DNA of 64,000 nucleotides from Trametes villosa (taxonomy: Eukaryota > Basidiomycota > Agaricomycetes > Polyporales > Polyporaceae), in assembly GCA_002964805.2 (NCBI GenBank), contig PUDQ02000014.1, forward strand, positions 620,001 through 684,000, read 5' to 3'. The stretch's first letter is position 1; each line of letters begins with the position of its first letter. The notes below the pieces were generated by a model. That model worked only from the letters and a program-made list of their open reading frames with translations. It was not told where the DNA came from and ran no database searches. Both the position numbers and the translations under genes were made by a program. Below are positions 27,189 to 56,221 of this stretch, one piece after another.

Positions 27189-27202
27189 GGAGGGTCTCGA
27201 GG

Positions 27203-27213
27203 AGTTCGGATAT
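27203..27213 (-). other. Putative self-priming primer-binding site
   Basis: Two bases inside the 5' LTR the minus strand reads ATATCCGAACT. This is the exact reverse complement of AGTTCGGATAT, found about 30 nt downstream of the TATA box in the 3' LTR (24519-24529) and the solo LTR (30900-30910). No tRNA-complementary site starting TGG is seen. The arrangement matches the Tf1-type mechanism, where the mRNA 5' end folds back to prime minus-strand DNA. Confidence 0.65.
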
Positions 27214-27215
27214 AC

Positions 27216-27860
27216 TGTTAGGGCCGTGCGGGCTTTAAGTCCGGAACCGGTCGGAGTTGACAGCTCCGAAGCGCGGGAAAGCGGAGCTCCGAACTCCGAA
27301 GGCGCGGGAAAGCGGACCTGGGCTTCGGAGGTCGGACTTGCCGGACGTAGCGGAGCGGAGGTCCGAACGGAGGCCCACACAAGGGAGGACTTCAGCGAAG
27401 CTATTAGCAACGCCAGAGACCCTTGCCACTTGTCCTCAGATTTCGGAGGTGGACAAGAGGAAGGGAGGGCGGAAGAAGTAGATTGAGTGCGGATAAGACG
27501 CTTTACAACGAGATATACGAACTGAGTAGCTACAACATACCAGCTACGTATATATAGACTACGAGCTAATTGTTATGCCACAACAATAAGAGCGGACTAA
27601 TAAGGAAGGTGAAAGCGGAATAGGGTCGGAAGTCGGGGAAGACAATAAGGCTATTGTTCTAATCGGAATTGAAGCGGAAAAGCGGAGTAAGTATGTCCGA
27701 AACGTCGGACAAGCGGAGTTAAGTCCGATAAGTGCGGAGTAAGCGGAGTTAAGCCCGATAAGAGCGGACTTAGCGGACCAAAAGCGGAGTAAAAGCGGAG
27801 TAAGAGCGGACCAAAGCGGAGTTGAGTCTGCAGGTGTCGGAGGTCGCACGGGGCGTAACA
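27216..27860 (-). repeat. 5' LTR of the gag-only retrotransposon (shorter variant)
   Basis: 645 bp. Its first ~235 bp (27216-27450, plus strand) and the last ~340 bp look identical to the 3' LTR. The block between (about 27452-27510) is replaced by a shorter unrelated sequence. The priming complement carries one substitution here (ATATACGAACT at 27513-27523). Confidence 0.85.
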
Positions 27861-27865
27861 GTATG

Positions 27866-28986
27866 CCAGATCGGCAAAATGTGGCAGCTCAGAAGCGGCA
27901 GGACCTGCCCGTTCTGGGAAGCCACATATTGCATGCATGGCATGCGCCGCGTACAAATCGTGCCCCAATTCACCGGGGGAGCACAGAGACGGAGGCCGTG
28001 ATTGGGGGATGACCGCCGGACACACCTGTGATGGGCCAAGAGAACGGGAGCGAGTCCGAAAGTTCCCTGCAGCCGTGTCTTTCCTAGAGTGGCCGCCCAC
28101 CCAATCCTGGCGAGCCGGACAAATCTGCAAATATCGCTCAGAGGCTCACACCGCCTGTCGACCCTGCAGCCCACCTGCAAAACCTGCAAGGAAATCCCGA
28201 AGGATTCAGGCTGTGCAGACACACAGCGGGCATCTGGGGCGAGTCAGCGTAGTATCAAACACATCTCCCATCTGCCGGGTATATCTGGTCCGGAATGTTT
28301 GGTGGGGCGGCACTGACACCGCATGTTCGAGTCTACGTAAACAGAAGATTTATTGAACTCGGATAGTATGTACAGCGAGGGAACTGGGCACTGCACCGCC
28401 TATTGTCTATCCTCCCCAACAACCCTTCTTGCGCCGCCCCTCGGACTCCCCGCGAGACGCTCCAACTGCCAGTGCGTGACCACGCTTGATCACGACCAGG
28501 CGTTCGAGATGTGGGCGCCCGCCGTCGCCATCCCCGAAGCGAGCATCCGCCGAATCACTCCCCATCGGCGCTGGCGAGAAGCCGTTCGTGCCCCCGGCGG
28601 TCGGCAGAATGTACTCGTAACTGCGCGCCGGGTCCAGAGCGGATTCGCCGCTGGCAGCAAAACGTGCAGGGATGCGATGCTCTCTGGTGGGTCGGTCAGC
28701 ACATTCGATCTCCCCGACGGCTGCTCGCGATACTCACCTCGTCTTGGAGCAGTCCCCTACACTCTCATCAGCACCCGCCCTCGCGCTCATCCCCTCCGCG
28801 GCCGATTCGGGGCACCATCCACACCACAGTGTGCAACTGGAGCATGCGACTACCGGCCGCCTCGACGTTGCACCTCTTCCGGCCAATCGCTGTAGTGTGG
28901 CGGATGCAGCGCGGCCGTTTGCTTCCCAGAGCGCACGCCCGACTGCGCGAGAAATCCGGATGCCGGGCTCTTGATGTCTAGAAGAG
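27866..28986. other. Intergenic stretch right of the retrotransposon
   Basis: About 1.1 kb between the target duplication and the candidate gene at 28987. Several overlapping frames exist but none has consistent splice sites or motifs. Confidence 0.35.
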
Positions 28987-29760
28987 ATGGCGGCGAAGTC
29001 GGAGATGTGTGGCAGGCCGACAGCCTATGAGGCGAGTACCTTGCGACTCGAGCGCACAAGGACACGGCCGTCGTTCTCATCCCTGGACGCGACAGGAGAC
29101 GCCTGGCGCTCTAGGTGGTCTCCGCATTCGACACTCTCGCACGCACCTCGCGACTGGCCTGTGGTGAGTCCCCGTAACGCGCACGCGACGTCACCGCGGC
29201 CCGTCTCTGATCCTGCCGCCCAGGGTGGAAGCTGGAGCACCTGGCGAGGGCTTAGGTCAGTATCACTCGCAAAAGCGGCCGCGGCCGAGCACGCTCGCGC
29301 AGCCGTACGAAGCAACTCACGCGTATGGCGGCAGCTTGTTCCGACTCGAGTTCAGCTGCTCCGCCACCCTACGAACCTGTACGTGAGTTCCGCAGCCATG
29401 TGCGTAATCAACCCGGTGCTCACCCGTCTACAGCGCCGCACAGATCACGCTTTGCCCAGGAAGCCCGCCGTCGCGGCGCGCGACCCTCGCACCTTGCGAG
29501 GGACGATCGACGACATTCCGATAGACGAACAACGCGCGAGACCGCTCATGGCACTGGGGGCTCTATCGAAGATGAATGTCAAACAAACGAAGCGAGGTCA
29601 GTACTGCGTGCTTATCCCCGGCGGTAGCAGACGCTCACTCACTTTGTCGTACAGTTCCGGCTCGGAGGCGGCGAGAACGCCGTCTTCGCTTCCTCCTTCA
29701 GCCCGCCGAACGCAATAAACGGGTGTACCTGGGGCGCCGTCTTGCTGGAGACGATGATGT
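28987..29760 (+). CDS. Candidate multi-exon gene, function unknown
   Basis: A chain of splice sites keeps one frame: 28987..29163, 29224..29255, 29303..29378, 29434..29596, 29655..29760, with GT donors and CAG acceptors, and possibly more exons up to about 30347. One exon codes a natural-looking segment (LRGTIDDIPIDEQRARPLMA); the next is Arg-rich. The sequence is GC-rich and alternative frames are also open, so this is a proposal. A final exon ending PRLTDTIEHSKYV (stop near 30347) could belong to it. No family is recognised. It may be a decayed gene beside the LTR elements. Confidence 0.3.
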
Positions 29761-30561
29761 GAGTACTTCGAAGTTGTCACTCGCGACTGGACTGCAATTT
29801 ACCTGTTGCGCAGCACGAGGCATGTCTCCCTGGGGTGCGAAGCCTGTATGGTGCGGGGAGGCGCACTGAGCAGGTATTGGAGAATGATTGCGGGTGCGGG
29901 GCCGGCCGGCTGCGGGGCGACTTGTCAAACACCGGCAAGAGAACGCTGGGAATCGCAGCGAAGGACGTACTAGCTGGGACGATTTCCGGCGCGTGCCGAG
30001 TCCTTTGATTGAATCACGACAACGAAGAGATGGCGACCGGGGAACGTATCGCGGGGGAGTCGTCCATGGCGGAGGGCGGGCCGAGCGAGCTCCGTCGCGA
30101 GGAATGGCAGCTGGCGCCGTGGGAGTCGGCGTAGCGCATTCGCAATGCCCAATGTGATGTCTTCATGCACGGTGCGTCAGGCTTCGAACAGAGCACGCGG
30201 GCTGACGACTTCCCTTCCAGTTTGCGAGTCGCTGCTCAGAGGCCATCTCCGAAGCGCGCGCGGCTGCCGTTCGACTCTCGAAGCCCGGTTCGGCCGGTGA
30301 AGCGCCCGCGCCTGACGGACACGATCGAGCACTCGAAGTACGTCTAGGCGCGACTGCGACGCTGGCAGGAGCACGCGCACACGTAGCTCCGCAAGCCCGC
30401 GGTCGAGTTTAGACTGCCTGCGAAACGGATAGCGTAAGTACGCTCGTACGCTCGCAGTTCACGCGTTCACGAGCGGCCACTTACCGATCCGGCTTCATCC
30501 AGTGTGTGCAGGCCGGCGGACTCCTCAGGCCGATGCGAACGCGTGCGAGCTTCGCCTGTCG

Positions 30562-31290
30562 CTGTTACGCCCCGTGCGACCTCCGACACCTGCAGACTCA
30601 ACTCCGCTTTGGTCCGCTCTTACTCCGCTTTTACTCCGCTTTTGGTCCGCTAAGTCCGCTCTTATCGGGCTTAACTCCGCTTACTCCGCACTTATCGGAC
30701 TTAACTCCGCTTGTCCGACGTTTCGGACATACTTACTCCGCTTTTCCGCTTCAATTCCGATTAGAACAATAGCCTTATTGTCTTCCCCGACTTCCGACCC
30801 TATTCCGCTTTCACCTTCCTTATTAGTCCGCTCTTATTGTTGTGGCATAACAATTAGCTCGTAGTCTATATATACGTAGCTGGTATGTTGTAGCTACTCA
30901 GTTCGGATATCTCGTTACTCGTTACACCATCCCATTCATCTATACACTCGTTCTACTCCTCTCCGCTTCCTCCGCTCGTCGTCCGGTAGCTCCGACCTTC
31001 CTAGTCCGGTAAGTCCGACATTCCGGCATCGGACCTCCGGACATCGGACCTGTCCACCTCCGAAATCTGAGGACAAGTGGCAAGGGTCTCTGGCGTTGCT
31101 AATAGCTTCGCTGAAGTCCTCACTTGTGTGGGCCTCCGTTCGGACCTCCGCTCCGCTACGTCCAACAAGTCCAACCTCCGAAGCCCAGGTCCGCTTTCCC
31201 GTGCCTTCGGAGTTCGGAGCTCCGCTTTCCCACGCTTCGGAGCTGTCAACTCCGACCGGTTCCGGACTTAAAGCCCGCACGGCCCTAACA
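30562..31290 (+). repeat. Solo LTR, same family as the 24144-27860 element
   Basis: 729 bp, TGTTACGCC...CCCTAACA, in the orientation opposite to the intact element. TATATATA at 30867-30874 and the priming complement AGTTCGGATAT at 30900-30910 are intact. Flanks (GTCGC left, TCTAT right) show no target duplication, so it is not a simple insertion followed by LTR-LTR recombination. It directly abuts the truncated gene starting at 31291. Confidence 0.85.
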
Positions 31291-32382: not shown

Positions 32383-32418
32383 GTGTGCTCTTGTTTAGTA
32401 AGGTGTCGGGAGTGCATT

Positions 32419-32706
32419 TGTAAAAACTCACAGAGTCGGGCACTTCTGATGCCCGCGGTCTCCAAGTACTCTGGTCCGGGCTCTATTAGGGCTCGGCGTA
32501 CTCGGGAGATGGTGGGGCAGTTGTAGAAGGCTGCCCTCACCAGACGCGCGGGCTCCGAATACCCGCACGTCGTACGCGTCTATCTAATACATGATATCTA
32601 CGCGGTATCTTATCCTAGCGCAACTAGCGCTAGGTACATCTCGCGACATAGCGCAACTAGCGCTATGTCCTGCAATAACCCGTAACGACCACGGAGGGTC
32701 GTTACA
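32419..32706 (-). repeat. 3' LTR of the 16-kb retrotransposon (unoccupied)
   Basis: 288 bp, TGTAAAAAC...CGTTACA. It provides the empty counterpart of the hAT target: positions 32566-32573 read CACGTCGT where the hAT in the other LTR is flanked by CGCGTCGT. Three strong hairpins lie in it: stem CCTAGCGC with loop AACTA (32614-32634), stem GACATAGCGC with the same loop (32645-32669), and stem GTAACGACC (32682-32705). Confidence 0.9.
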
Positions 32707-32718
32707 CTCTCCCCCTCT
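32707..32718 (-). other. Polypurine tract next to the 3' LTR
   Basis: On the minus strand this reads (T)AGAGGGGGAGA(G), immediately before the LTR terminus TGTAACG. It is the expected plus-strand primer of an LTR retrotransposon and fixes the element's orientation as minus. Confidence 0.75.
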
Positions 32719-33178
32719 AGACCCGTTGTACGGGTCTACAATAGAGTATTATAGTAAAAGGAACGACTGCTGATATTCGCAGTCATAGCACTATATGATA
32801 CAAAGAGTTGCGCATAGTGCGTGCGCAACTCATATATATACAATGAGTTAGTGAGCCAAGTAGGCTCACGGTGTGGTCACAGCAGTGTAGTGGGATATAT
32901 ACACGACTGCAGATATTAGCAGTCATACCACTACACTACCATGATATGGTAGTGTTTTTGTTTTTGGGTTATGGATGCGCGCACCGTGGGGTGCGGCTAT
33001 GTACATTAGTACCGCAGCTATGGCGGACGAACCGATCAATTTTTGACGCAGATCGGTTGCGTTATGCCCAAGGAGACGATAATATCGTCTCCTACGGGGA
33101 CTGCAAATATTTGCAGTCATACCGTCGTGGTATACGACGAGTGCATGACGGATGCACTCGAAGGTTGTGATTAGACAC
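32718..33178 (-). repeat. Array of perfect short hairpins between the 3' ORF and the 3' LTR
   Basis: At least ten perfect stem-loops in 460 bp. Examples: stem TAGACCCG, loop TTGTA (32718-32738); stem GAGTTGCGC (from about 32806); stem GTGAGCC, loop AAGTA; stem GGAGACGATA with a 1-nt centre (33072-33092); the 20-nt perfect palindrome of GACTGCAAAT (33099-33118); stem GAGTGCAT, loop GACGG. The stem GACTGC...GCAGTC occurs three times with different loops. Confidence 0.8.
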
Positions 33179-35728
33179 CTACGCGGTGTCGTCGTGTGGC
33201 GATGACGGGGTGAGAGGGGAGGATCCCTGCTCACCCGTCGCGTTCTCGCTCTCGTCGTGCCTGTCGCTAGTAGCGGCAGGCGGTTGGGAAGGCCCGGCGA
33301 CGGGTGCCTCCTGCACGTCCTCCATCGCGCGAGCGGGGGAGTACGGCGGAGGTGGGACTCCGTCATCGGGATGGGTACCCGCCACTACGTGTGACGGGGT
33401 CGAGGCAATGCTCGACGGTTCGGCGACCGCAATTATGGCGGTCGCTGCGGTGGTAGTGGACGCGTCGGTCATGTCGACGTCGTCGGTGGTAACGGCAGGC
33501 GCCTCGGGTGCCTGCGGGGGTGCTGGTGTGGGTGCGGGTGCTGGTGTGGGTGCGGGCGCGTTGGGGGGCGGCAGTGGGCCGCCTGTGGCGACCGGTCCCA
33601 AGTCCCGCGAACTGGGCACGACTCCGACGTCGAGAGTCGAATTCGGGCCGCCATCCATTTGAGGCAGCAGTGACCGAAGGTTGCGCCCGTTCCGCTCGTT
33701 GCGGCACAGTCTCGCGAGCGGCAGGAACCGCTCCGCAGCCATCGGGGTAAGACCGCGCGCCGCAAACCAGCGCGCTAGATGGAACAACGTCGTGCTTGCG
33801 ACGTCGTTGGGGTAGGGGCCCGGGTGGTAGCTAGTACCTACGGGGTACTGCCCCTGCTCTACCACGTAACGGTAGAGCCCCGGCACTGAGAACAGCCAGT
33901 GGGCGAGGGTCACCCAATGCCCTCGCGGTCCCAGTGGCGTGCCGCGCGGCAGCATCGCTCGAACGGCAACGTGGTACTCCACGCTGCGCGTCGTAGAAAG
34001 CCCATTTGGCTCCCGCTCCATCCACTGAGGGATACGGCGCTCATCGACGCCATACCAAGCCTGCCACACAGCAGGCGGGTCACTGAAGCTCGGCTGGTTT
34101 GGGGCCGGCACCGTGCGCTGGGCACGCAGCTTCAGTTTGACCTCCCGCCACTCAGCGGGCGTCCGCTTGCGCGAGAGGGTCGACGACGGCGGCGGCAAGT
34201 GCGCCGTCGACGCGTGCTCGAGTCCAGGGGGAGTGTTTCCCCGGGAGTCGGCTCGTTGAGCCGCCGCGATCAGCGGCGGCGGCGCCTCTCGACGCCACGA
34301 CGACTGTAGCTGGTTAAGACCAGCCACTCCTGTGTACTCCGAACGGGAGTTCACTTGACCAATTAGGTTGCGGATGCGGTGAGCCGCCTCACCCGTATCA
34401 CGGCGAGCAGCCATGATAATGTTGTTGGCGTCCGCGACGGACACCGGCACGTAGTTGTACCAGTGCCCCGCGAGACGCGGGTCCGAGTCGGTGGGGAGGG
34501 CCAACAGGTGGTACGGCCACCCGGGGACCCTCGCCACATCCGTCGCTGGTTGCGGCGGAGGTTGCGTGCCAAACGGCGCGCCCTGACCCGGAGCATGTGC
34601 CGGGCCAGTGTCGTGACGAGCACGACGATACCGGTTTCGAGAGACGAGTCTCTCGATCCGCCTCTCGTCGATATCGTCGTCCTCGTCGCTCGTCGCGTTT
34701 TCCCAGTCCACCATAGGGTGGTCCCGGTCCGCGGATGTCGACGAGGTCGGCATCGCCGTCGAGTTCGACGGTCCTGCCACATTTGGCGTCGTCATCTGCG
34801 ACGCTCCAGTCCTCGATGGTCCTGCCCCGCTGGGCAGCGACACGATCGGCATCAAGCTGGGCCCAGCGGACGGCGCTGAGCTCCTTGATGTCGACGCGAA
34901 CGACCTATTGTTCGCAGTATCCCTCCTCCGAGGGCTGAGTTCCCTCGGGTCGCGTCGTCGTTCGTCGCGCGGAGGCGACACCCTCCTGTGCCGAGCCCGA
35001 CTGAGCTCAGCCTCCAACTGCGAGCGCACTTCATCGCGCTCGCGCTCGTACTCGTCGCGCTCCTGGCGAGCGGCCTCGCGCTCGCTCCGGTATCTGTCCC
35101 GGATCGACTTCGTCTCGTCGACGAGCTCCTTCATCTTCTGGAGCTTCGCCTCGAGCTCCGCGATCCAATCGCGGCTCCTCCCCTCCTCCACCCTCTGGTG
35201 CTCCTCGAAGTGCCGCCAGAACCGCTGCTGCAGTTCTGACTGGACGCGTGTCTGCGCGTCCCGGAACGTCGAGTCTGACGCCGCCGCGTTGTAGTGGCGG
35301 ACAAAGTCCGCGCACACAGCGCAGTTGTCGCTGTGCGCGACCAACAAATGTTGGCCCGCTACGGGCGCCCAGGTCATGCTCGAGAAGGGCATGAGGGGGA
35401 TGCCACCAGTCTGTGGCATCGGCGCGCTCGAACTGGGCGCGCTCTGGAATGCAGGACCCGCTTGATGCGGGAACTGGAAGCCGCCGCCGTACGGAAACCC
35501 GTAGGCGGGCATGCCCTGCGAGAAGGCATGCGGGAACTGCTGGGGGTGGGTTACCCCCGGCATGGACGAGAACGCGGGAGCTGCCGCTTGTTGCGGCAGC
35601 ATGAACTGCGAAGGTTGGGGAAAGGGAATGTTTTGTTGTTGAGGGGCCGCAGGTTGCGACCCCTGTTGCTCCGAGGCTTGCTGCCCGGAGCCGCTGGCTT
35701 GCGTGTTGTCTTGCGGGGCGTCGTTCAT
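33179..35728 (-). CDS. Retrotransposon-associated ORF, 849 residues, unknown function
   Basis: One uninterrupted frame from ATG 35728. N-terminal 130 residues are Gln/Pro/Ala-rich. Then comes CAVCADFVRHYNAAA and a long charged coiled coil (RDRYRSEREAARQERDEYER), followed by an Arg/Ser-rich stretch. The C-terminal half looks globular: HWYNYVPVSVADANNIIMAA, PPAVWQAWYGVDERRIPQWM and YPNDVASTTLFHLARWFAARGL. I believe similar ORFs accompany gypsy-type elements across Agaricomycetes, usually annotated as hypothetical. Position 3' of pol and just before the 3' LTR is that of an env-like or accessory ORF. It has no reverse transcriptase or integrase motifs. The frame is preserved even though pol is gone. 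Confidence 0.75.
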   Translation of the reverse strand: MNDAPQDNTQASGSGQQASEQQGSQPAAPQQQNIPFPQPSQFMLPQQAAAPAFSSMPGVTHPQQFPHAFSQGMPAYGFPYGGGFQFPHQAGPAFQSAPSSSAPMPQTGGIPLMPFSSMTWAPVAGQHLLVAHSDNCAVCADFVRHYNAAASDSTFRDAQTRVQSELQQRFWRHFEEHQRVEEGRSRDWIAELEAKLQKMKELVDETKSIRDRYRSEREAARQERDEYERERDEVRSQLEAELSRARHRRVSPPRDERRRDPRELSPRRRDTANNRSFASTSRSSAPSAGPSLMPIVSLPSGAGPSRTGASQMTTPNVAGPSNSTAMPTSSTSADRDHPMVDWENATSDEDDDIDERRIERLVSRNRYRRARHDTGPAHAPGQGAPFGTQPPPQPATDVARVPGWPYHLLALPTDSDPRLAGHWYNYVPVSVADANNIIMAARRDTGEAAHRIRNLIGQVNSRSEYTGVAGLNQLQSSWRREAPPPLIAAAQRADSRGNTPPGLEHASTAHLPPPSSTLSRKRTPAEWREVKLKLRAQRTVPAPNQPSFSDPPAVWQAWYGVDERRIPQWMEREPNGLSTTRSVEYHVAVRAMLPRGTPLGPRGHWVTLAHWLFSVPGLYRYVVEQGQYPVGTSYHPGPYPNDVASTTLFHLARWFAARGLTPMAAERFLPLARLCRNERNGRNLRSLLPQMDGGPNSTLDVGVVPSSRDLGPVATGGPLPPPNAPAPTPAPAPTPAPPQAPEAPAVTTDDVDMTDASTTTAATAIIAVAEPSSIASTPSHVVAGTHPDDGVPPPPYSPARAMEDVQEAPVAGPSQPPAATSDRHDESENATGEQGSSPLTPSSPHDDTA

Positions 35729-36430
35729 GGCACGGGCGTCGTTGTTGGTGGTGGTGGTGAGGTGGCAGAGTTCGGTTATGACCCTGCACTCGCGAGGTCG
35801 CCGTCTTAAAGCGCCGGCGGAGTCCGAACGCGTCGGTGGCTGCCTCGCGCACGCGCGCCTGCACGTGACGTACTATTTCACGGTCACGCGCCCTCTGCGC
35901 GTGCTCTGTCCTTCACCACGACTACTCAATCGGGTAGTCTTGACCACGAAGCGCATGTTGCGCTTCGTACATCCGCTAAGTCTTGGCTAGTGTTGCTCGG
36001 TCCAGTCCCAGGACCGCTCAAGGACCGGGGACTGGACCAGGACTGGACCGCCCAAGGACCAATACATGGTCCGGTCCTAGGGTGGTCCAGTCCTGGTCCT
36101 GGTCCCCGGTCCCCAGCCTTCGAGCTTTTACTCAGACTGGTCAAGACTGGTTAAGACCGGTTCAGGACCGCCTGGATAGGACCGTCAAGGACCGCCAAAA
36201 ACCGGTCCGGACCGGTCCTCGGTCACCCTGGCAAGCAGACCTGTCCCCGGGCTGAGGCAGCAGTTTCCGGGGGCAGAGCCCAGAGCTATACAGCTGTTCT
36301 CACGGTCATGCGTGTTCCGGCCCTTCTACACCAAGTCCACAATTTTTGAGTGGTCGGCTCCCACACACATCATCACACCTAGGCTCCCCAACAAACTCAT
36401 CATATCTCTCATCTGCTTCTACTGCCTGTA

Positions 36431-39400
36431 ATGGCGAAAACTCGAGCTGCATCAGATAAGCGAACGCGTGCTACACAGCAGAAGGGAGGTAAGCGAAAAC
36501 GGCAAGACGGCTCCGGATCCGAGGAGGACAGTGGGAAAAAGAAGCAGTCGAAGACGCGCAGCAAGCGCCGAAAGCGGAAGCAAAGCGCCGAGGAGGTGGA
36601 CGTGGCAGACAAAGAGAGCGAAGAAGAGCCTGAGGTAATCGAGGTGAAGGAGACTGATGAGGAAGACGAGGACGATGAACAGGAAGCAGAAGAGGGGCAG
36701 GATGAGGAAGAGGACGAGGATGGTGGGGATGAGGACGAGGATGGAGACAAGGAGCAAGAGGGTGGCCGGCGAGGCCGAAGAGCAGGACGTGCTCGTGATG
36801 AGGGAACGGACCCCGAGGTATGTACTTCAGGCGGATGAGTTCCTAGACAAGCTGTAGTGAACGATATCGACAAGGAGGAGAGTGAGTTGGACGTACCTAG
36901 CAAGGTTTCCCAGAAGGTCGACCAAGCAGCCGACCTCCAGACCGTCTTCTCGCCACGGGTCAACGTCCGGTTCAAGTCGTCCGGTGGCAAGGTGGAGGAG
37001 GAGCGAGGACGGTGGTGTCTGATCTGCAAGTGAGTACTCGCCGCGGAAGACCTTCAGTGTCGGGACTCACCAGGTGTCGCGCATAGGGAGGACCCGAAGA
37101 AACGGCAAGAACATGGCGGACGGGCAGGGTGGTACACCGGCGGAAACTCGACGTGCCGGAGGCACATCGCGTCCGCCCATTACACCGAGTACAGTAAGAG
37201 ATGTAAAGAAGCTAAGGTGGCGGAGGCGGCCGCGGCGACGCCGAAGAGCGTCCTCGCAGCGCGGAAGAAAGAGGCGGAGGGGCGGGAGCAAGCGGCTGCG
37301 AAGAAGCAGACGACGCTCGATGGCGTGGCGCGCAAGGTGGAGACGCCCACGGTGTTCTCACGGCCTGGTATATTCGACGCAGTCACGCAGCACGTTGTCG
37401 TCGGCGACCAGGTGTGTCTCGCGCCACCGCCTCGTCGCTCGCGCCGACCCCCGCGTTTATTAAATTCAATGTTCACTCTAGGCTCTACTGGTGGCCGACA
37501 ACGTCACGTTCACCAACTGCCTCGTCGCCATGCGGCCGAAAACCACACGCGAAGACTTGCCGACGCGCGCGACGGTGCGCACGCGCATAGGTAATGAATT
37601 CAATACCTACGTTTCGGATATCCGGAAGAACATCGAGGGCGCCATTGGCGACGTCTCGACGAATTTCGATCTATGGACAGAAGACCACGCAAGCATCGCA
37701 TACTTTGGGCTCATAGGTCAGTGGATTGACACGCTCGGCGAGACCGACACCCCGAGCGGCGCGCAGGGAGAGCCTGCGAAGTGGTCCCTTCGCTCTGAAG
37801 TGCTCGCGATGCACGAAATCCTGGGCAACCACAGCGGCGCGAATCTTGGGCGGTACTTCCTCAAGTTCACGGATCGCGTGGGGATCACCGCAAAAGGAGG
37901 CGCGACGAACAAGGTACGCGCGAACCTGTGCGGCGGATTCCGTTACTGATCCTATTGCTTCGCACAGCTTGGGCGCGTCACGGCGGACAACGCGTCCAAC
38001 AACGCGACCGCCTCGGCGGAGATTGAGCGGCTGCTCGCCAAGCGCGGCGTGCTCGAATGGAACGCCGACGAACAGCAGCTCAGCTGCATCGCTCATGTGG
38101 TTCAACTCGGCATCGAAGACTTCATGACCGAAGTCACGCAAGTCGCCCTGGTCGAGAGCAAGCAAGCGATCTGGGACTACGATCCAACACTGCCTGCCAA
38201 CCGCGTGGCCATCGGCGGCCTCGACTCCCTCGCAATGCTCCGGACGCTCTCGATCAAGGTACGCTCGTATATTCTCGGCGCGCGCTCATAGCTCGACTAA
38301 CCACCTGACAGATCCAAGCATCGCCCCAGCGTTTGGAAGCGTTCAAGCGCACGCAGAAGCAGACCGGGATTGATGATCCCCTCATCATCCCGCTGCACAA
38401 CAACACGCGCTGGGGGAGCGCCAACCGTATGTGCGAGCGCGCCTACCGGCTTCGAGAGGTACGTAGTCCTTATGTGCATCTAATGTCTGTATTAACGTCG
38501 TCTCAGGCTATCGACGCGTTCGTCGCGACCGCGGACGCGAAGTTTGGCCCGATTACAGTCATCCGACAGGCCGGGTCGATCACCAAGAAGATACCTTGGT
38601 CTGCGTTCCGTCTCGAGGACGCCGACTGGAAGCGCGTCCGGCTATGCGCGGACATTCTCGCGGTAAGCAACTCCTCTACACTGATTGGTCGCGCGGTACT
38701 GAAACGCTCGCAGGACGCCAACCGATACCATCAGCTTTTCTCTGCGGACACAGTCCCAACCATCCACCGCGTCATCCCCGCGCTCGAGGCCCTCTGTACG
38801 CGGTGGGAACGCAAGCTGGAAGATCCGAAGTACGCCCTCTTCCATCCGGCCATCAAGCGCGGACTCAGCAAGCTCGGCAAGTACTACAACAAGCTTGATA
38901 ACAGTGATGTTTATGTCCTCTCCCTCTGTGAGTATCTCCCGTGTACGGTTGTTTTGTGTGACTGATTATTGTTTCAGTGCTGCACCCGTATTACAAGCTG
39001 TCCTACATCGAGGAGAAATGGGGCGGCGCCGAGGAGCAGGCCGAGGAGATCGCCGCCGGCAACCCAAACACTGTCAACTGGACTGAGCACGCGCAAACAG
39101 TCGTCGACAACGCGGTAAGTCTATTTCGGGCGATTGAATGAAATCATTATTGACCGCGCGCGCAGATGGAGCGCTATTGGCCGAAGCGGCTGAACGCGGC
39201 AAGCGCGGCGGCGGCTGCAGCCACCCGTGATGAGAACCCGCCCTCTGCGCTGCGCGCGCAGTCCAGGAACGTGGCAAGCGGCGACGAATCGGAGGACGAG
39301 TTCGACATCGCGCGCCAGCGGCGGCTTCAAGAGGACCCATCTGGAGGGTGGAAGTCCGAGCTCAAACGGTATCTGGACGACCCCGGGAACGACGTCAGCA

Positions 39401-39797
39401 AGCACATCAACACGGTAGAGTACTGGTGGGTAAGTACTGTCCTTCCCCGCCTCCGATCGGACTGTCGGGACTGATGTATATTTCAAACTAGGAACACCGC
39501 CTTGTATACCCGACGCTTGCGAGGATGGCGCTCGATATCCTTCCAATCCCGGCGTCCTCGGTCGCGGTCGAGAGGCTGTTCTCCCGTGCCCGCGAGGTCT
39601 CCACGGATCGCCGATCTCGCATCGGCCCGGAGCTGTTTGAGTGGCTCGAGTGCTTGCACCACTACTGGCGCTCGCGCATCGTTGACTACGCCCGGATCAA
39701 CAGCCAGGAGGTAGAGGAGGTGGATATGAGCGAGTTCGCCGTGTTCTACGAGGTCGAGGAGCTCTTCCGCGACGACGAGGACGCCCCAGACATGTAG
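36431..39797 (+). CDS. hAT transposase, left copy
   Basis: Eleven exons: 36431..36817, 36858..37029, 37087..37411, 37482..37913, 37968..38258, 38312..38458, 38507..38662, 38714..38927, 38978..39114, 39166..39429, 39492..39797. The first exon is Lys/Arg then Glu/Asp-rich (likely nuclear localisation). A BED zinc finger follows (WCLIC ... HIASAH), then the RNase-H-like core with FDLWTEDHASIAYFGL, VTADNASNN and CIAHVVQL, and the RW motif (NTRWGSA). The C-terminal hAT dimerisation domain is complete (PASSVAVERLFSRAREVSTD). The intron 1 phase does not fit the obvious GTATGT donor, so the exon 1/2 join is unresolved. Otherwise the frame is intact and may encode an active transposase. Confidence 0.85.
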
Positions 39798-40910
39798 CAG
39801 TAGTTTAGATTAGTTTCATTATTGTATGTATCTGAGAATACTCTTCGGGCCCCCTCCCCGCTCACGCCTGCACTATGTCCTATGCCTCCTCGACGTGGGC
39901 GCCTATTAACGCGCCGAAGCCTTCTCGCGGCCGCAGTCATCGATCGCCCGCTCTCTCATCCATCCAGCATCCACTATTCCCTAGACTCTTGTATCTGCCC
40001 TCGCGCCCGCTTCGCACCCTCCTCACGCGCGTTCCAAATGCCGCCTCTACTAAAACCGCAACATGTTGGCGGCCGCCCGGCGCTCGCACCCCTCCAGTCG
40101 GCCCACCGCGCTCACCGCCAGTCAGCTCGCCGCGCCCGCTCGCGCATCGCGCCCGCTCGCGCATCGCGCCCACTCGCGCATTGCGCTTGCATCGTGCGCC
40201 GCCGATGGAGCTTCAGACGGGTCGCTGGATGCGTCAGTTTTGGCACTGCGGTACGTCATCTACTCTCCCGCCCGCATCCCTGCGCTCCCGACTCCGTACT
40301 GATGAGCATCTGCATCTAGATCACCCGGATCGTGCAGGCTACCTGCGGGCGGCCTCGCGCGCGCAGATTCCAAGCATTGCGCGCGCTCTCGTGGACCGGC
40401 AAGCTCTTGGAAGGTATGCAGATGCCGTGTCGCTACACCATCCCCCCTCGAGCTCGAGCTCCACCCGGCGCCCTCACTCGCTCCCCTCGCCGTGTTCCTC
40501 ATCCCCCAAGACCTCTTCCTTGGCTCTTCCACGCTCTCCCACGCCCTCGTCGCCATCTGTCTCCTGTGCAACCCACCCTGACCCTCGGCTTGTACCTCTG
40601 CTAAGTGCCCGGCTACTGGTGGCGCTTGACTGTCTTCACGGCTCCTGGCGCTCATTCCGGTGCTTAGGTGTGTACATCCTTACCTATCATGGTGGCTCTA
40701 CCCAGCCATCATGCCCCCTTATCCCGGCCATGCTCCACTGCTAATTTATACTGAGTCTTGTTCACTGCATAGTTATATTGTTTTGCACACTGTATATCAT
40801 ACTATTGTACTTCAATAGCCTAGAAATATATCTTTGTGATACTCTCCTTGTGCAGGCATGTATCAGTGACAGTCCTAGGAGACCAACCTCTGTTAATTTG
40901 TTGCCAAGGC
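39798..40910 (+). other. hAT 3' internal region without clear coding function
   Basis: About 1.1 kb between the transposase stop and the subterminal repeats. Around 40130-40190 a short tandem repeat (units containing CGCCCGCTCGCGCATCG) occurs about three times. Frames here lack splice support or motifs. The mirror lies at 43444-44556. Confidence 0.45.
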
Positions 40911-41129
40911 CGGTCCTAACCAGTCCAGACCGGTTCCGACCGGTCCTGTAAAAATTGCGGTCCTGAACCGGTCTGAACCGGTCTGTGGACCGAGTAAGGA
41001 CCGCGGTCCTACCAGGACCGCGGTCCTGGTCCGGTCCTTTGTAGCGTAAGGCGGTCCGGTCTTGGTCCTGGTCCCCGGTCCTGCTGTTGAGGGTCAAAAG
41101 ACCGGACCGGACCAGACCCCGCAACACTA

Positions 41130-41284
41130 ACGACGCGCGGGTATTCGGAGCCCGCGCGTCTGGTGAGGGCAGCCTTCTACAACTGCCCCACCATCTCCCG
41201 AGTACGCCGAGCCCTAATAGAGCCCGGACCAGAGTACTTGGAGACCGCGGGCATCAGAAGTGCCCGACTCTGTGAGTTTTTACA
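41130..41284 (+). repeat. Inverted LTR fragment adjoining the left hAT
   Basis: 155 bp, the exact mirror of 43070-43224, i.e. one part of the 5' LTR duplicated in inverted orientation with the hAT. The other LTR part, beyond the hAT, is absent on this side because the palindrome ends at the hAT terminus. Confidence 0.85.
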
Positions 41285-41389
41285 CTTTTTTTACTCTTAC
41301 CGTGTTAGAATCGCCCGATTTGGGGCTCGATGTGCAACCACGTCATCGAACTCTAACCCCCTAGCAACCCCCATCCGCATCCAGCAAGA

Positions 41390-41522
41390 ATGAGCCACCA
41401 CAGCTCAAACAACCCCACGGACCCGCGAACTCCGCGGGCCTCGACTTCTACCTCGAACCAAACCCCCCGCGCTGAGTTCGGCGCGGGCCCATCCGCCACG
41501 TCACTCCCTCGGTCTACTGTAT
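41390..41522 (+). pseudogene. Truncated inverted copy of gag 5' end
   Basis: Mirror of the gag start at 42964. It opens MSHHSSNNPTDPRTPR and runs about 43 codons. The palindrome ends at 41517 and a stop follows at once in the spacer. Confidence 0.8.
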
Positions 41523-42964
41523 AGTGTTGTAGAACCACGTAGCGGCATCACCGCTAAGTGCAGTGCCCAATATTCGGACACGGTCACGGTCCATCCTAGG
41601 ACCCGTGATCCTCAACGTGTTGAAGTACTCGAGGAGGCCTCGCAGCCATACCTCGAGTGCATCGAGATCGTCTTTCCCTTCGTACGTCTTGGGTGGCGCA
41701 AGTTTCGCCACCTTCAAGTACGCAGGGGGATCACCCTCTGGAGGTGATCCGACCATCTCATCTATCATCCGTACGAGACGGCTGATCGTTACACCATCAC
41801 GAGGCCCTACTACAGGCCCCGTGTATGCCAGCGGTTCCGTAGTTTCCGCTGGCTGCATAGGAGGTAATCCTCCGTAATATGCAGACGCTCCCATTGAACG
41901 TCGAGGGTGTTTCCAGTCCCATAGTCCAGGCGGCCGTTCTTGACGGTACGCGGGTCCTTGGGACGCAGACATAGGCTCAGCGGGATAATCGCTGGGCGAG
42001 GATGGAATTGGCTGCGCGACGTGCGCAGCCCTAGTTGAGCCTTGCGGATGATCGAATGCCACGTTCCGAGTAGGAACGGCATTCTGTGCATCGCCAGTTC
42101 GACGGGTTGATGAGGACAGCGGCAGTTGCGCCATCGTGTGCGGTGGATCATACAGCCCCGCACGACTCAGTCGTTCAATCCGGCCAGCGACGATACGCTG
42201 GCGAGGATCCAATAGTGCATCCTCTACTTCGCGATCATCCGCGAAGTTCTCCATTTGCGGATCAGCAGCTGAGCTGATATGTGTGTCTATGGTTGCCCTT
42301 GTCATAGGCAACTCGTCGCTTTCATCCTCACCAGCCACGATAGGCTGATGAATGTGGTGCCCTGCATCGGCATCCTCACTTACCGCTATAGTGCGAGCGG
42401 TAAGGTCCTCCTCGTCTTCTTCATCCATTAGGTCACCTAGGCCTAATTCCGCTAATGCGGACTGCAGAGCGAGGTTCGTCTCGTTCTCTGCCTCGAGTAT
42501 CTGCTTCTGCAGCAGACGGAATCGTTTCTTCGATTCCCGAACTACCATGCGCAACGGCGCAAGGTTCAGTGCCGGTGCCGCCGGCACTGACGAGCTCGCA
42601 GCCAACTGCTGCGAGCGTCCTTCACGCAGATCCTGCCAGTCTTGCCCAATGTTGGCAAGACTCCGACTGTTAAGCGAGCTCGCAGCGGAGCCCGATCGTC
42701 GTGACGGGCCTGCTTGTTCTGAAGCCGGTCGTCCAGCATGCACGCTGGCAGTCGCACGACCCCTAGTAGGGTTCGTGGTGTCGTCTAAGCCGCCGGATAC
42801 CACTGATTGTGGTATCGAGGTCCACCCTCGCCCTCTGTAGACCGAGGGAGTGACGTGGCGGGTTGGCCCGCGCCGAACTCAGCGCGGGGGGTTTGGTTCG
42901 AGGTAGAAGTCGAGGCCCGCGGAGTTCGCGGGTCCGTGGGGTTGTTTGAGCTGTGGTGGCTCAT
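41514..42964 (-). pseudogene. gag: Gag of the 16-kb retrotransposon, truncated and frameshifted
   Basis: Frame one starts at ATG 42964 (MSHHSSNNPT...) and stops about 60 codons in. A second frame, open from upstream of 42803, continues for more than 420 residues. It holds a Ser/Arg-rich part, a coiled coil (RESKKRFRLLQKQILEAENE) and then the Ty3/gypsy Gag segment (LAPPKTYEGKDDLDALEVWL, GTALSGDAATWFYNTIQ). A single frameshift or an unseen intron must connect the frames. The ORF ends artificially where it runs into the left palindrome arm at 41517, so the rest of gag and all of pol are missing. Confidence 0.7.
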
Positions 42965-43069
42965 TCTTGCTGGATGCGGATGGGGGTTGCTAGGGGGTTA
43001 GAGTTCGATGACGTGGTTGCACATCGAGCCCCAAATCGGGCGATTCTAACACGGTAAGAGTAAAAAAAG

Positions 43070-43224
43070 TGTAAAAACTCACAGAGTCGGGCACTTCTGA
43101 TGCCCGCGGTCTCCAAGTACTCTGGTCCGGGCTCTATTAGGGCTCGGCGTACTCGGGAGATGGTGGGGCAGTTGTAGAAGGCTGCCCTCACCAGACGCGC
43201 GGGCTCCGAATACCCGCGCGTCGT
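43070..43224 (-). repeat. 5' LTR of the 16-kb retrotransposon, inner part
   Basis: 155 bp of LTR from the TGTAAAAAC terminus to the hAT insertion point, ending in the first copy of the 8-bp hAT duplication CGCGTCGT (43217-43224). It resumes at 48375. Confidence 0.9.
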
Positions 43225-46200
43225 TAGTGTTGCGGGGTCTGGTCCGGTCCGGTCTTTTGACCCTCAACAGCAGGACCGGGGACCAGGACCAAGACCGGAC
43301 CGCCTTACGCTACAAAGGACCGGACCAGGACCGCGGTCCTGGTAGGACCGCGGTCCTTACTCGGTCCACAGACCGGTTCAGACCGGTTCAGGACCGCAAT
43401 TTTTACAGGACCGGTCGGAACCGGTCTGGACTGGTTAGGACCGGCCTTGGCAACAAATTAACAGAGGTTGGTCTCCTAGGACTGTCACTGATACATGCCT
43501 GCACAAGGAGAGTATCACAAAGATATATTTCTAGGCTATTGAAGTACAATAGTATGATATACAGTGTGCAAAACAATATAACTATGCAGTGAACAAGACT
43601 CAGTATAAATTAGCAGTGGAGCATGGCCGGGATAAGGGGGCATGATGGCTGGGTAGAGCCACCATGATAGGTAAGGATGTACACACCTAAGCACCGGAAT
43701 GAGCGCCAGGAGCCGTGAAGACAGTCAAGCGCCACCAGTAGCCGGGCACTTAGCAGAGGTACAAGCCGAGGGTCAGGGTGGGTTGCACAGGAGACAGATG
43801 GCGACGAGGGCGTGGGAGAGCGTGGAAGAGCCAAGGAAGAGGTCTTGGGGGATGAGGAACACGGCGAGGGGAGCGAGTGAGGGCGCCGGGTGGAGCTCGA
43901 GCTCGAGGGGGGATGGTGTAGCGACACGGCATCTGCATACCTTCCAAGAGCTTGCCGGTCCACGAGAGCGCGCGCAATGCTTGGAATCTGCGCGCGCGAG
44001 GCCGCCCGCAGGTAGCCTGCACGATCCGGGTGATCTAGATGCAGATGCTCATCAGTACGGAGTCGGGAGCGCAGGGATGCGGGCGGGAGAGTAGATGACG
44101 TACCGCAGTGCCAAAACTGACGCATCCAGCGACCCGTCTGAAGCTCCATCGGCGGCGCACGATGCAAGCGCAATGCGCGAGTGGGCGCGATGCGCGAGCG
44201 GGCGCGATGCGCGAGCGGGCGCGGCGAGCTGACTGGCGGTGAGCGCGGTGGGCCGACTGGAGGGGTGCGAGCGCCGGGCGGCCGCCAACATGTTGCGGTT
44301 TTAGTAGAGGCGGCATTTGGAACGCGCGTGAGGAGGGTGCGAAGCGGGCGCGAGGGCAGATACAAGAGTCTAGGGAATAGTGGATGCTGGATGGATGAGA
44401 GAGCGGGCGATCGATGACTGCGGCCGCGAGAAGGCTTCGGCGCGTTAATAGGCGCCCACGTCGAGGAGGCATAGGACATAGTGCAGGCGTGAGCGGGGAG
44501 GGGGCCCGAAGAGTATTCTCAGATACATACAATAATGAAACTAATCTAAACTACTGCTACATGTCTGGGGCGTCCTCGTCGTCGCGGAAGAGCTCCTCGA
44601 CCTCGTAGAACACGGCGAACTCGCTCATATCCACCTCCTCTACCTCCTGGCTGTTGATCCGGGCGTAGTCAACGATGCGCGAGCGCCAGTAGTGGTGCAA
44701 GCACTCGAGCCACTCAAACAGCTCCGGGCCGATGCGAGATCGGCGATCCGTGGAGACCTCGCGGGCACGGGAGAACAGCCTCTCGACCGCGACCGAGGAC
44801 GCCGGGATTGGAAGGATATCGAGCGCCATCCTCGCAAGCGTCGGGTATACAAGGCGGTGTTCCTAGTTTGAAATATACATCAGTCCCGACAGTCCGATCG
44901 GAGGCGGGGAAGGACAGTACTTACCCACCAGTACTCTACCGTGTTGATGTGCTTGCTGACGTCGTTCCCGGGGTCGTCCAGATACCGTTTGAGCTCGGAC
45001 TTCCACCCTCCAGATGGGTCCTCTTGAAGCCGCCGCTGGCGCGCGATGTCGAACTCGTCCTCCGATTCGTCGCCGCTTGCCACGTTCCTGGACTGCGCGC
45101 GCAGCGCAGAGGGCGGGTTCTCATCACGGGTGGCTGCAGCCGCCGCCGCGCTTGCCGCGTTCAGCCGCTTCGGCCAATAGCGCTCCATCTGCGCGCGCGG
45201 TCAATAATGATTTCATTCAATCGCCCGAAATAGACTTACCGCGTTGTCGACGACTGTTTGCGCGTGCTCAGTCCAGTTGACAGTGTTTGGGTTGCCGGCG
45301 GCGATCTCCTCGGCCTGCTCCTCGGCGCCGCCCCATTTCTCCTCGATGTAGGACAGCTTGTAATACGGGTGCAGCACTGAAACAATAATCAGTCACACAA
45401 AACAACCGTACACGGGAGATACTCACAGAGGGAGAGGACATAAACATCACTGTTATCAAGCTTGTTGTAGTACTTGCCGAGCTTGCTGAGTCCGCGCTTG
45501 ATGGCCGGATGGAAGAGGGCGTACTTCGGATCTTCCAGCTTGCGTTCCCACCGCGTACAGAGGGCCTCGAGCGCGGGGATGACGCGGTGGATGGTTGGGA
45601 CTGTGTCCGCAGAGAAAAGCTGATGGTATCGGTTGGCGTCCTGCGAGCGTTTCAGTACCGCGCGACCAATCAGTGTAGAGGAGTTGCTTACCGCGAGAAT
45701 GTCCGCGCATAGCCGGACGCGCTTCCAGTCGGCGTCCTCGAGACGGAACGCAGACCAAGGTATCTTCTTGGTGATCGACCCGGCCTGTCGGATGACTGTA
45801 ATCGGGCCAAACTTCGCGTCCGCGGTCGCGACGAACGCGTCGATAGCCTGAGACGACGTTAATACAGACATTAGATGCACATAAGGACTACGTACCTCTC
45901 GAAGCCGGTAGGCGCGCTCGCACATACGGTTGGCGCTCCCCCAGCGCGTGTTGTTGTGCAGCGGGATGATGAGGGGATCATCAATCCCGGTCTGCTTCTG
46001 CGTGCGCTTGAACGCTTCCAAACGCTGGGGCGATGCTTGGATCTGTCAGGTGGTTAGTCGAGCTATGAGCGCACGCCGAGAATATACGAGCGTACCTTGA
46101 TCGAGAGCGTCCGGAGCATTGCGAGGGAGTCGAGGCCGCCGATGGCCACGCGGTTGGCAGGCAGTGTTGGATCGTAGTCCCAGATCGCTTGCTTGCTCTC

Positions 46201-48366
46201 GACCAGGGCGACTTGCGTGACTTCGGTCATGAAGTCTTCGATGCCGAGTTGAACCACATGAGCGATGCAGCTGAGCTGCTGTTCGTCGGCGTTCCATTCG
46301 AGCACGCCGCGCTTGGCGAGCAGCCGCTCAATCTCCGCCGAGGCGGTCGCGTTGTTGGACGCGTTGTCCGCCGTGACGCGCCCAAGCTGTGCGAAGCAAT
46401 AGGATCAGTAACGGAATCCGCCGCACAGGTTCGCGCGTACCTTGTTCGTCGCGCCTCCTTTTGCGGTGATCCCCACGCGATCCGTGAACTTGAGGAAGTA
46501 CCGCCCAAGATTCGCGCCGCTGTGGTTGCCCAGGATTTCGTGCATCGCGAGCACTTCAGAGCGAAGGGACCACTTCGCAGGCTCTCCCTGCGCGCCGCTC
46601 GGGGTGTCGGTCTCGCCGAGCGTGTCAATCCACTGACCTATGAGCCCAAAGTATGCGATGCTTGCGTGGTCTTCTGTCCATAGATCGAAATTCGTCGAGA
46701 CGTCGCCAATGGCGCCCTCGATGTTCTTCCGGATATCCGAAACGTAGGTATTGAATTCATTACCTATGCGCGTGCGCACCGTCGCGCGCGTCGGCAAGTC
46801 TTCGCGTGTGGTTTTCGGCCGCATGGCGACGAGGCAGTTGGTGAACGTGACGTTGTCGGCCACCAGTAGAGCCTAGAGTGAACATTGAATTTAATAAACG
46901 CGGGGGTCGGCGCGAGCGACGAGGCGGTGGCGCGAGACACACCTGGTCGCCGACGACAACGTGCTGCGTGACTGCGTCGAATATACCAGGCCGTGAGAAC
47001 ACCGTGGGCGTCTCCACCTTGCGCGCCACGCCATCGAGCGTCGTCTGCTTCTTCGCAGCCGCTTGCTCCCGCCCCTCCGCCTCTTTCTTCCGCGCTGCGA
47101 GGACGCTCTTCGGCGTCGCCGCGGCCGCCTCCGCCACCTTAGCTTCTTTACATCTCTTACTGTACTCGGTGTAATGGGCGGACGCGATGTGCCTCCGGCA
47201 CGTCGAGTTTCCGCCGGTGTACCACCCTGCCCGTCCGCCATGTTCTTGCCGTTTCTTCGGGTCCTCCCTATGCGCGACACCTGGTGAGTCCCGACACTGA
47301 AGGTCTTCCGCGGCGAGTACTCACTTGCAGATCAGACACCACCGTCCTCGCTCCTCCTCCACCTTGCCACCGGACGACTTGAACCGGACGTTGACCCGTG
47401 GCGAGAAGACGGTCTGGAGGTCGGCTGCTTGGTCGACCTTCTGGGAAACCTTGCTAGGTACGTCCAACTCACTCTCCTCCTTGTCGATATCGTTCACTAC
47501 AGCTTGTCTAGGAACTCATCCGCCTGAAGTACATACCTCGGGGTCCGTTCCCTCATCACGAGCACGTCCTGCTCTTCGGCCTCGCCGGCCACCCTCTTGC
47601 TCCTTGTCTCCATCCTCGTCCTCATCCCCACCATCCTCGTCCTCTTCCTCATCCTGCCCCTCTTCTGCTTCCTGTTCATCGTCCTCGTCTTCCTCATCAG
47701 TCTCCTTCACCTCGATTACCTCAGGCTCTTCTTCGCTCTCTTTGTCTGCCACGTCCACCTCCTCGGCGCTTTGCTTCCGCTTTCGGCGCTTGCTGCGCGT
47801 CTTCGACTGCTTCTTTTTCCCACTGTCCTCCTCGGATCCGGAGCCGTCTTGCCGTTTTCGCTTACCTCCCTTCTGCTGTGTAGCACGCGTTCGCTTATCT
47901 GATGCAGCTCGAGTTTTCGCCATTACAGGCAGTAGAAGCAGATGAGAGATATGATGAGTTTGTTGGGGAGCCTAGGTGTGATGATGTGTGTGGGAGCCGA
48001 CCACTCAAAAATTGTGGACTTGGTGTAGAAGGGCCGGAACACGCATGACCGTGAGAACAGCTGTATAGCTCTGGGCTCTGCCCCCGGAAACTGCTGCCTC
48101 AGCCCGGGGACAGGTCTGCTTGCCAGGGTGACCGAGGACCGGTCCGGACCGGTTTTTGGCGGTCCTTGACGGTCCTATCCAGGCGGTCCTGAACCGGTCT
48201 TAACCAGTCTTGACCAGTCTGAGTAAAAGCTCGAAGGCTGGGGACCGGGGACCAGGACCAGGACTGGACCACCCTAGGACCGGACCATGTATTGGTCCTT
48301 GGGCGGTCCAGTCCTGGTCCAGTCCCCGGTCCTTGAGCGGTCCTGGGACTGGACCGAGCAACACTA
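43225..48366 (-). mobile_element. hAT transposon, right copy with intact target duplication
   Basis: 5142 bp with terminal inverted repeats beginning TAGTGTTGC (next bases GGGTCTGGTCC versus TCGGTCCAGTCC). It is flanked by a perfect 8-bp duplication CGCGTCGT (43217-43224 and 48367-48374), as expected for hAT. It interrupts the 5' LTR; the undisturbed site survives in the 3' LTR at 32566-32573. This is the original insertion, and the left copy derives from it. Confidence 0.95.
44557..47923 (-). CDS. hAT transposase, right copy
   Basis: Mirror image of 36431-39797 with the same eleven exons (each coordinate equals 84354 minus the left one). The BED finger, catalytic-core motifs and C-terminal dimerisation domain are all present. 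It differs from the left copy by at least one base (about 46074), which changes Ala to Val only if that intronic base is read through. Both copies share the unresolved exon 1/2 phase, so it predates the duplication. Confidence 0.85.
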
Positions 48367-48374
48367 CGCGTCGT

Positions 48375-48506
48375 ACGCGTCTATCTAATACATGATATCT
48401 ACGCGGTATCTTATCCTAGCGCAACTAGCGCTAGGTACATCTCGCGACATAGCGCAACTAGCGCTATGTCCTGCAATAACCGTAACGACCACGGAGGGTC
48501 GTTACA
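48375..48506 (-). repeat. 5' LTR of the 16-kb retrotransposon, outer part
   Basis: 132 bp, continuing the LTR beyond the hAT and ending CGTTACA at 48506, followed by the target duplication GCATT. It carries the same hairpins (stems GACATAGCGC and CCTAGCGC) as the 3' LTR. Confidence 0.9.
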
Positions 48507-48538
48507 GCATTGCTAGAGCTAAGAGACACGCATCCTAG

Positions 48539-56086: not shown

Positions 56087-56221
56087 CATGTCTTTTTGCC
56101 CATCCATGTGCCACCAAAGGCGAATGATTTGACGCATTACGCAGACGGCCCGAGAGGAACATGTTACAATGTAAAACACTCTTCATACACTATGGTACAC
56201 ATTACAATCTCCACATTATCG

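Follow-up and report, generated by a model that had tools for sequence, protein, structure and literature searches.

Short Perfect Hairpins in Coding and Non-Coding Parts of a Ty3/Gypsy Retrotransposon of Trametes villosa

Introduction

Some RNA viruses have genome-scale ordered RNA structure (GORS), meaning that the fold energy of the whole genome, coding sequence included, is far below that of shuffled sequences and that the positions of the structures are not conserved. Inverted repeats have also been described in the mitochondrial coding sequences of Nematomorpha, where many perfect repeats in conserved coding sequence and no excess of imperfect ones are reported; the authors weighed repeat conversion against function (PMC6649704). 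This paper concerns a long terminal repeat (LTR) retrotransposon of the basidiomycete Trametes villosa. The window, by which we mean the whole 64,000-nucleotide stretch that was analyzed (positions 620,001 to 684,000 of contig PUDQ02000014.1, assembly GCA_002964805.2), has at positions 32419-48506, on the minus strand, one damaged Ty3/Gypsy-type element with GCATT on either side. Short perfect hairpins are found throughout this element and its less damaged copies. A first-pass annotation had described such saturation across the LTR, the 3' region, an open reading frame (ORF) of 849 codons and gag. The seven stems that it listed are all present in the window, and the pol and gag-protease sequences that the window copy has lost are also saturated in other copies. 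We recognized no earlier report of a hairpin-saturated retrotransposon in the literature searched, most subscription papers being outside its scope.

Hairpin Excess in the Element

Stems were counted as perfect inverted repeats with a loop of 3-10 nucleotides, and the counts were compared with codon-preserving shuffles for coding sequences and with dinucleotide shuffles for non-coding sequences. Together, the gag-protease, pol, ORF905 (the longer form of ORF849) and 3' non-coding/LTR parts, 10 kb from three copies, have 110 stems of at least 7 bp, compared to 8.0 expected and a maximum of 16 in 100 shuffles. The element total is therefore about 14 times the shuffle expectation, with the proteins and the base make-up preserved. 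Pol has 50 of these stems (2.7 ± 1.5 expected, z = 32), and 40% of its bases are inside hairpins with stems of at least 6 bp. In-frame codon shuffles give 2.2 for the 30 stems of the gag-protease and 2.6 for the 31 stems of a second copy of it, and ORF905 has 19 stems (3.3 expected). The prediction that the reading frames would exceed codon-preserving shuffles also holds in the window itself, where ORF849 has 16 stems of at least 7 bp (2.6 expected, maximum 6) and the gag fragment at 41517-42803 has 10 (0.9 expected, maximum 3). The LTR and non-coding sequence at 32419-33178 has another 11 (0.4 expected). Stems of at least 6 bp reach 14-19 per kb at 32-36 kb and 9-17 per kb at 41-43 kb, whereas the remaining bins have 0-9 per kb, and 33 of the 40 stems of at least 8 bp in the window are within 32-36 kb and 40-44 kb.

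The excess in pol extends over stem lengths of 5-11 bp and peaks at 7-8 bp, and stems in the element are mostly 6-11 bp long. The longest stem with a loop of up to 10 nucleotides in family A (that of the window element) and its relative family B is 12 bp, in B. Enrichment in pol climbs about two- to threefold with each base pair added from 5 to 8 bp; such a graded rise is what a stability-driven process gives. Loops of 3-10 nucleotides are enriched in pol, with a sharp drop past 10, and the bulk of the excess is in this range (50 hairpins vs. 2.6 expected, compared to 4 vs. 2.2 with loops of 11-20 and 13 vs. 3.8 with loops of 21-40). The commonest pol loops are 3 and 5-7 nucleotides, so the annotated preference for 5 is approximate.

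The folding energies agree with the counts, being far below those of codon-preserving shuffles across the element. The z values are -23.7 (sense) and -22.0 (antisense) for pol and -17.6 and -15.1 for the gag-protease. Relative to shuffles, the sense strand folds better than the antisense strand by 4.6 standard deviations (SD) in ORF905 and 2.8 SD in the 3' region.

Nearby sequences behave differently. By dinucleotide shuffles, a hAT element in the window has 3 stems of at least 7 bp (2.7 expected), with a mild excess at 6 bp or more (19 vs. 9.5, maximum 15), the right flank has 7 stems of at least 7 bp (7.7 expected), and the repeat-rich left flank has a mild excess (13 vs. 6.6, maximum 12). 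Seven other window ORFs or pieces have 0-1 stems of at least 7 bp each. The hairpin excess is slight or absent in host ORFs, in the hAT element and in more distant Gypsy clades of this genome. Within pol, neither direct repeats (1 vs. 1.9 expected) nor mirror repeats (1 vs. 1.4) are enriched. Direct repeats are raised in ORF905 (15 vs. 8.6), which hairpins do not explain.

The stems are also built from silent choices, as had been proposed; they bring no excess of amino acid replacements and avoid the most constraining codon phase. A-specific replacements at conserved sites number 4 of 116 in stems and 15 of 349 outside, which are few events, and third-to-third pairing, the most constraining phase, is depleted (22 of 99 vs. 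34.7 expected, p = 0.008).

Distribution among the Gypsy Families of the Genome

Fold energy of the reverse transcriptase (RT) region was compared with 40 codon shuffles per sequence. The RT set consists of 22 places fetched of 89 matches; the near-duplicates B83 and C2 were dropped from later sets. Family A has a z of -15.1 and the B copies have values of -7.6 to -10.6. The C sequences form a series, from C1 (-11.2), C45m (-7.7) and C107 (-7.1) to C15 (-4.0), C77 (-4.0), C3m (-3.6), C140b (-2.9) and C35 (-2.0). Outside this clade the values are -0.8, -0.9 and -3.1 for D, -2.4 and -2.2 for E and 1.0 and 0.0 for F, and those of seven window ORFs or pieces are -1.0 to 1.5. A second shuffle set gave -12.2 for A, -8.6 for C1 and -3.1 and -2.5 for E; therefore, the low end of C is indistinguishable from the controls. 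In the RT tree, A is placed with B (support 1.0), and C1, C107 and C45m are grouped (0.96). The hairpin trait thus rises and falls within one Gypsy clade of one host.

Hairpin Changes between Copies

Copies were collected from the whole genome (46.7 Mb, 140 contigs). A search gave 39 matches at 30 loci, of which 23 are in the 3' alignment; L024-L030 were too short and were left out. The gag set has 12 loci fetched of 26 matches, plus C128 (L058).

Compensatory substitutions, in which both sides of a pair have changed and are still Watson-Crick, had been suggested as a test, and they are present in two diverged relatives within this genome. There are six between L003 and L021 (0.8 expected), three between L016 and L021 (0.7 expected) and seven between the gag copies L034 and L058 (0.9 expected). 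They are absent when L003 is compared with L016, L017 and L018 and when B28 is compared with B45, where 0.1-0.3 are expected in each case. Among the 13 pairs of L003/L021 and L034/L058, 10 are transitions and three are transversions; outside stems, transversions are 121 of 421 changes. One-sided stem changes leave 16 G.T and five A.C in L003/L021, six and nine in the gag pair, and seven and six, respectively, when shared changes are counted per site over copies.

Among 22 copies, shared variants are rarer in stems than outside (25 of 702 sites vs. 143 of 2636, p = 0.05), whereas private variants are as common (73 of 702 vs. 219 of 2636), with the reservation that stem sites were defined over all copies, which favors a higher private count in stems. 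These results would suggest that stem protection acts during replication of the element and not after insertion. Single changes adding and removing pairing stand at 6:18 for shared and 14:49 for private variants, so there is no sign of an ongoing surge in hairpin gains. Among private changes, C>T and G>A predominate at comparable counts (131 and 117 outside stems), a pattern as from deamination or a process like repeat-induced point mutation.

Clusters of changes that add at least four paired bases show how stems arise. In the 3' part, compared over 22 copies (L021 apart), there are nine, each made up of 2-4 point-like changes. A 9-bp hairpin of L016, TACGGCGTT-GATG-AACGCCGTA, is the clearest case; copies show C-G, T.G, T-A and C.A at one of its pairs, and both arms have changes, as stepwise compensation would produce. 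No such cluster was found among the 12 gag copies. Five family B copies have four, of which one, in B140 (21 changes), is seemingly non-homologous sequence and the others, known by size alone, have 2-3 changes. Long rewriting of one arm that creates a hairpin was not seen among the copies compared (3' part, gag and family B, a small sample), and inversion of loops between copies, looked for by eye, was not seen either.

Possible Origins of the Hairpins

We give about an even chance to the view that the hairpins are kept by selection on folding of the RNA genome or of single-stranded complementary DNA (cDNA). The first-pass annotation had offered a selected fold and template switching as alternatives; the evidence leans toward selection, without deciding, because the stem-building changes among copies are small and stepwise and lack long one-arm rewriting. 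On the side of selection we also place the absence of a protein cost, the depleted third-to-third phase, the graded enrichment with stem length, the compensatory pairs, the scarcity of shared variants in stems and the better sense folding of ORF905 and the 3' region. All measured parts of the element, genes included, are a chain of short perfect hairpins that silent codon choices produce. Antisense RNA and small-RNA-guided silencing would have difficulty reaching an RNA that is folded along its whole length, and stems of no more than about 12 bp would not be long enough as Dicer substrates. Dicer requires longer duplexes, and for this reason, together with the limited stem length, escape from silencing is the use that we think most likely for the fold; the next candidate is compaction for packaging by the zinc-knuckle Gag. 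The complete scenario, namely that a retrotransposon lineage rewrote its genome codon by codon into mini-hairpins below Dicer length and so shielded its RNA from silencing without becoming a substrate, is speculative and we regard it as rather doubtful.

Several observations weigh against selection on folding. At 7 bp, perfect stems are enriched 18.3-fold, stems with one G.T 5.7-fold (90 vs. 15.9), stems with one A.C 3.4-fold (72 vs. 21.4) and stems with one non-transition mismatch 1.2-fold; the higher figure for G.T than for A.C is on the side of selection. However, stems with two G.T are barely enriched (15 vs. 11.8), and the counts of single G.T (26) and single A.C (27) do not differ in pol, both of which argue against selection on an RNA fold because such selection should favor G.T; the double-G.T result also rules out an RNA fold in which G.T could be used freely. 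Pooled loops, which include a protease part whose codon shuffle was out of frame, are enriched in A (1.42-fold) and T (1.39-fold) alike, the protease part being A-rich and the 3' part T-rich. The RT region is strand-symmetric across 13 A, B and C sequences, and control family E also differs between strands, by -2.7 and -3.5 SD, so the sense bias noted above is not clean. Strand symmetry alone does not exclude selection on RNA, because the two strands of a perfect hairpin fold in the same way. Pol also has a raised number of parallel complements (15 vs. 5.7), an arrangement incapable of pairing; hairpins do not explain this excess, which is far below that of inverted repeats. Individual hairpins turn over, and of the 50 in A pol only three have complete pairing in B, their arms being identical or compensated (e.g., ctacttc-AGG-gaagtag / ctacctc-CGT-gaggtag), and double changes over all A/B stem pairs are not in excess (19 vs. 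15.2 expected). Finally, L009 has a private adjacent double change that adds pairing, and it is the best candidate for a short copying event.

Template-switch copying during reverse transcription is a possible, though less probable, source of the hairpins. The cDNA would fold back at an imperfect inverted repeat, copy its own other arm and return, so that quasi-palindromes become perfect, and purifying selection on the proteins would leave only the silent outcomes. Such a mechanism has been proposed for RNA genes (PMC8794818), and a similar argument from the "binary character" of repeats was made for the nematomorph mitochondria (PMC6649704). Besides the L009 change, copying would account for the contrast between perfect stems and those with a non-transition mismatch, for the excess beyond perfect stems being mainly of single transition mismatches (G.T and A.C both), for pol, where mismatches and fold energy are nearly the same on either strand, and for the pooled loops, which are A/T-rich and likewise nearly symmetric. 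It would also fit with all measured parts of the element being affected and other transposable elements hardly, and with compensatory transversions occurring although A.G and C.T intermediates are not enriched. Copying is kept viable by perfect Watson-Crick pairing and by strands that are nearly symmetric. However, long contiguous rewriting of one arm is not seen among copies, the two arms are equally diverged from B (122 and 129 differences), and there is no leak into amino acid replacements, although the events are few. The A/B comparison is itself uninformative about one-arm rewriting, because identity at third positions is 40% and silent sites are saturated. ORF905, which is presumably less constrained than pol, has fewer hairpins. 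The only directional signal, in the stems of family A, is that A-T pairs whose A is 5' outnumber T-A pairs (195 vs. 135, p = 0.001), with no matching bias between G-C and C-G.

The remaining explanations fare worse than selection on folding or copying. Selection at the DNA level, with cDNA hairpins or cruciforms serving integration, protection or the avoidance of homology-triggered mutation, is consistent with the strand-symmetric folds and mismatches of pol and with the A/T-rich pooled loops. We consider it unlikely, given the better sense folding of ORF905 and of the 3' region and hairpins spread over the whole element with no localized site; we know of no process that requires element-wide DNA hairpins. 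Chance arising from composition, codon usage or low complexity has in its favor the mild excesses of short inverted repeats in the hAT element and the left flank, but for the retrotransposon the codon and dinucleotide shuffles, the mirror and direct repeat controls and the host and transposable element controls rule it out almost completely. It is equally improbable that mobile palindromic units, like those of Rickettsia, were inserted repeatedly. Two LTR hairpins do have a common core, gcgcTAGTTgcgc, but the hairpins otherwise differ in sequence, and those in pol code for conserved residues of RT and integrase and can be aligned, gap-free for the most part, with relatives that lack hairpins.

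Structure and Classification of the Element

The features of the window copy are listed in Table 1. This copy lacks the greater part of gag, protease and pol, and the bulk of 35988-48366 is hAT DNA and not retrotransposon. The inverted copy at 35988-41517 occupies the place that the remaining gag, the protease and pol have in other copies. Besides the hAT element it includes 388 bp of the adjoining LTR, leader and gag, and one of its breakpoints is exactly at the hAT end; perhaps it is an aberrant product of hAT transposition. The spacer before ORF849 has a hairpin, ACGAAGCGC-ATGTT-GCGCTTCGT, at about 35946-35968.

Table 1. Features of the retrotransposon copy in the window
Feature	Position	Strand	Remarks
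Target-site duplication GCATT	32414-32418		Same five bases again at 48507-48511
3' LTR, 288 bp	32419-32706	-	TG...CA in sense; first 93 bases have three perfect hairpins of 8-10 bp
3' non-coding region	32707-33178	-	Purine-rich tract adjoins LTR
ORF849, extra ORF 3' of pol	33179-35728	-	No Pfam match
Spacer before ORF849	35729-35987	-	Short remnant of pol end, by comparison with another copy's pol
Inverted copy (99.95%, 5530 bp) of 42837-48366	35988-41517		Contains whole hAT, LTR piece, leader and gag start
gag 5' fragment	41518-42964	-	Open frame 41514-42803, interrupted relative to ATG at 42964
Leader, 5' LTR to gag	42965-43069	-	
5' LTR, second part	43070-43224	-	1 difference in 155 from 3' LTR
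hAT element within 5' LTR	43225-48366		Ends TAGTGTTG...CAACACTA; 8-bp duplication CGCGTCGT on each side; junctions read by eye
5' LTR, first part	48367-48506	-	

Other copies supply the missing genes. The gag-protease frame is open over at least 993 amino acids in five of the 12 gag loci, and its product matches a zinc knuckle and, weakly and below the curated cut-off, a protease. Pol has 1181 amino acids with RT, RNase H, integrase (an rve match below the curated cut-off) and SH3 domains, and it is followed by an ORF of 849-905 amino acids. A Chromo match in the A copy (E = 0.0027) is below the cut-off, and none is listed for B at 0.01. The order protease, RT, RNase H and integrase that is typical of Ty3/Gypsy elements is present in these copies and missing from the window copy; TG...CA LTRs, a target duplication and a purine tract are all present. 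The start of the leader has no exact complement of at least 8 bases in the LTR or leader, the two regions used for the self-primer comparison.

A Pfam search with ORF849/905 gave no match, and its relatives are two proteins among 7993 candidates scored, one of them in Trametes coccinea. Of 131 sites with variants common to several copies, 97 are third codon positions, so the ORF is a maintained gene, kept by purifying selection. The nearest relatives in Trametes genomes have pol proteins at 74-85% to family B, the closest named one being from Trametes pubescens (85%), and no relatives of the element were found in the viral contigs scanned.

Two retrotransposon copies have another element, with terminal inverted repeats of about 910 bp (75-82% alike), inside them (L031:2118-4728 and L032/L018 (C49)); one insertion is in the 5' LTR/gag part and the other in pol. 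Elsewhere in the window, the left flank at 24144-31290 holds several repeats, both direct and inverted, with lengths of 240-730 bp and 95-100% alike, and ARAGORN, with a bacterial model, called a selenocysteine tRNA at 56005-56087, which is probably false in a fungus.

Concluding Remarks

In this element, base pairing has taken over the silent sites of a working set of genes at a large scale, with the proteins kept. If the fold is selected, the retrotransposon would have adapted structurally over its whole genome; a mutational origin would point toward a reverse transcriptase that makes palindromes of the sequences it copies. The graded sister families in one genome are built-in controls for choosing between selection and template switching.

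The element resembles the chromovirus-like Ty3/Gypsy elements of Polyporales in its domain order, including the protease and SH3, its TG...CA LTRs and its 5-bp duplication, and differs from them in its hairpin saturation and in the downstream ORF. With the template-switch hairpins described in PMC8794818, it shares perfect stems, in this case with an imperfect excess mainly of single transition mismatches, and compensatory double changes. However, the subject of that work is RNA genes and DNA replication, and long block events are not seen here; no multi-base replacement of one arm was found between close relatives, of which few were sampled, with the L009 double change as a possible short case. 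The mitochondria of Nematomorpha are similar in the perfection of the repeats, in that third-to-third codon phase is disfavored and in that positions are gained and lost between relatives, but their repeats are reported to be up to 284 bp long (PMC6649704). Those of the T. villosa element are 6-12 bp, number about a hundred per element, and occupy both coding and non-coding parts of a nuclear retrotransposon. Compared to GORS, we are dealing with a fungal LTR retrotransposon in which the excess is mostly of tiny, local, perfect hairpins and pol is nearly strand-symmetric. In conclusion, the coding palindromes of Nematomorpha are the closest documented case, and the GORS of RNA viruses would be the closest functional analogy.

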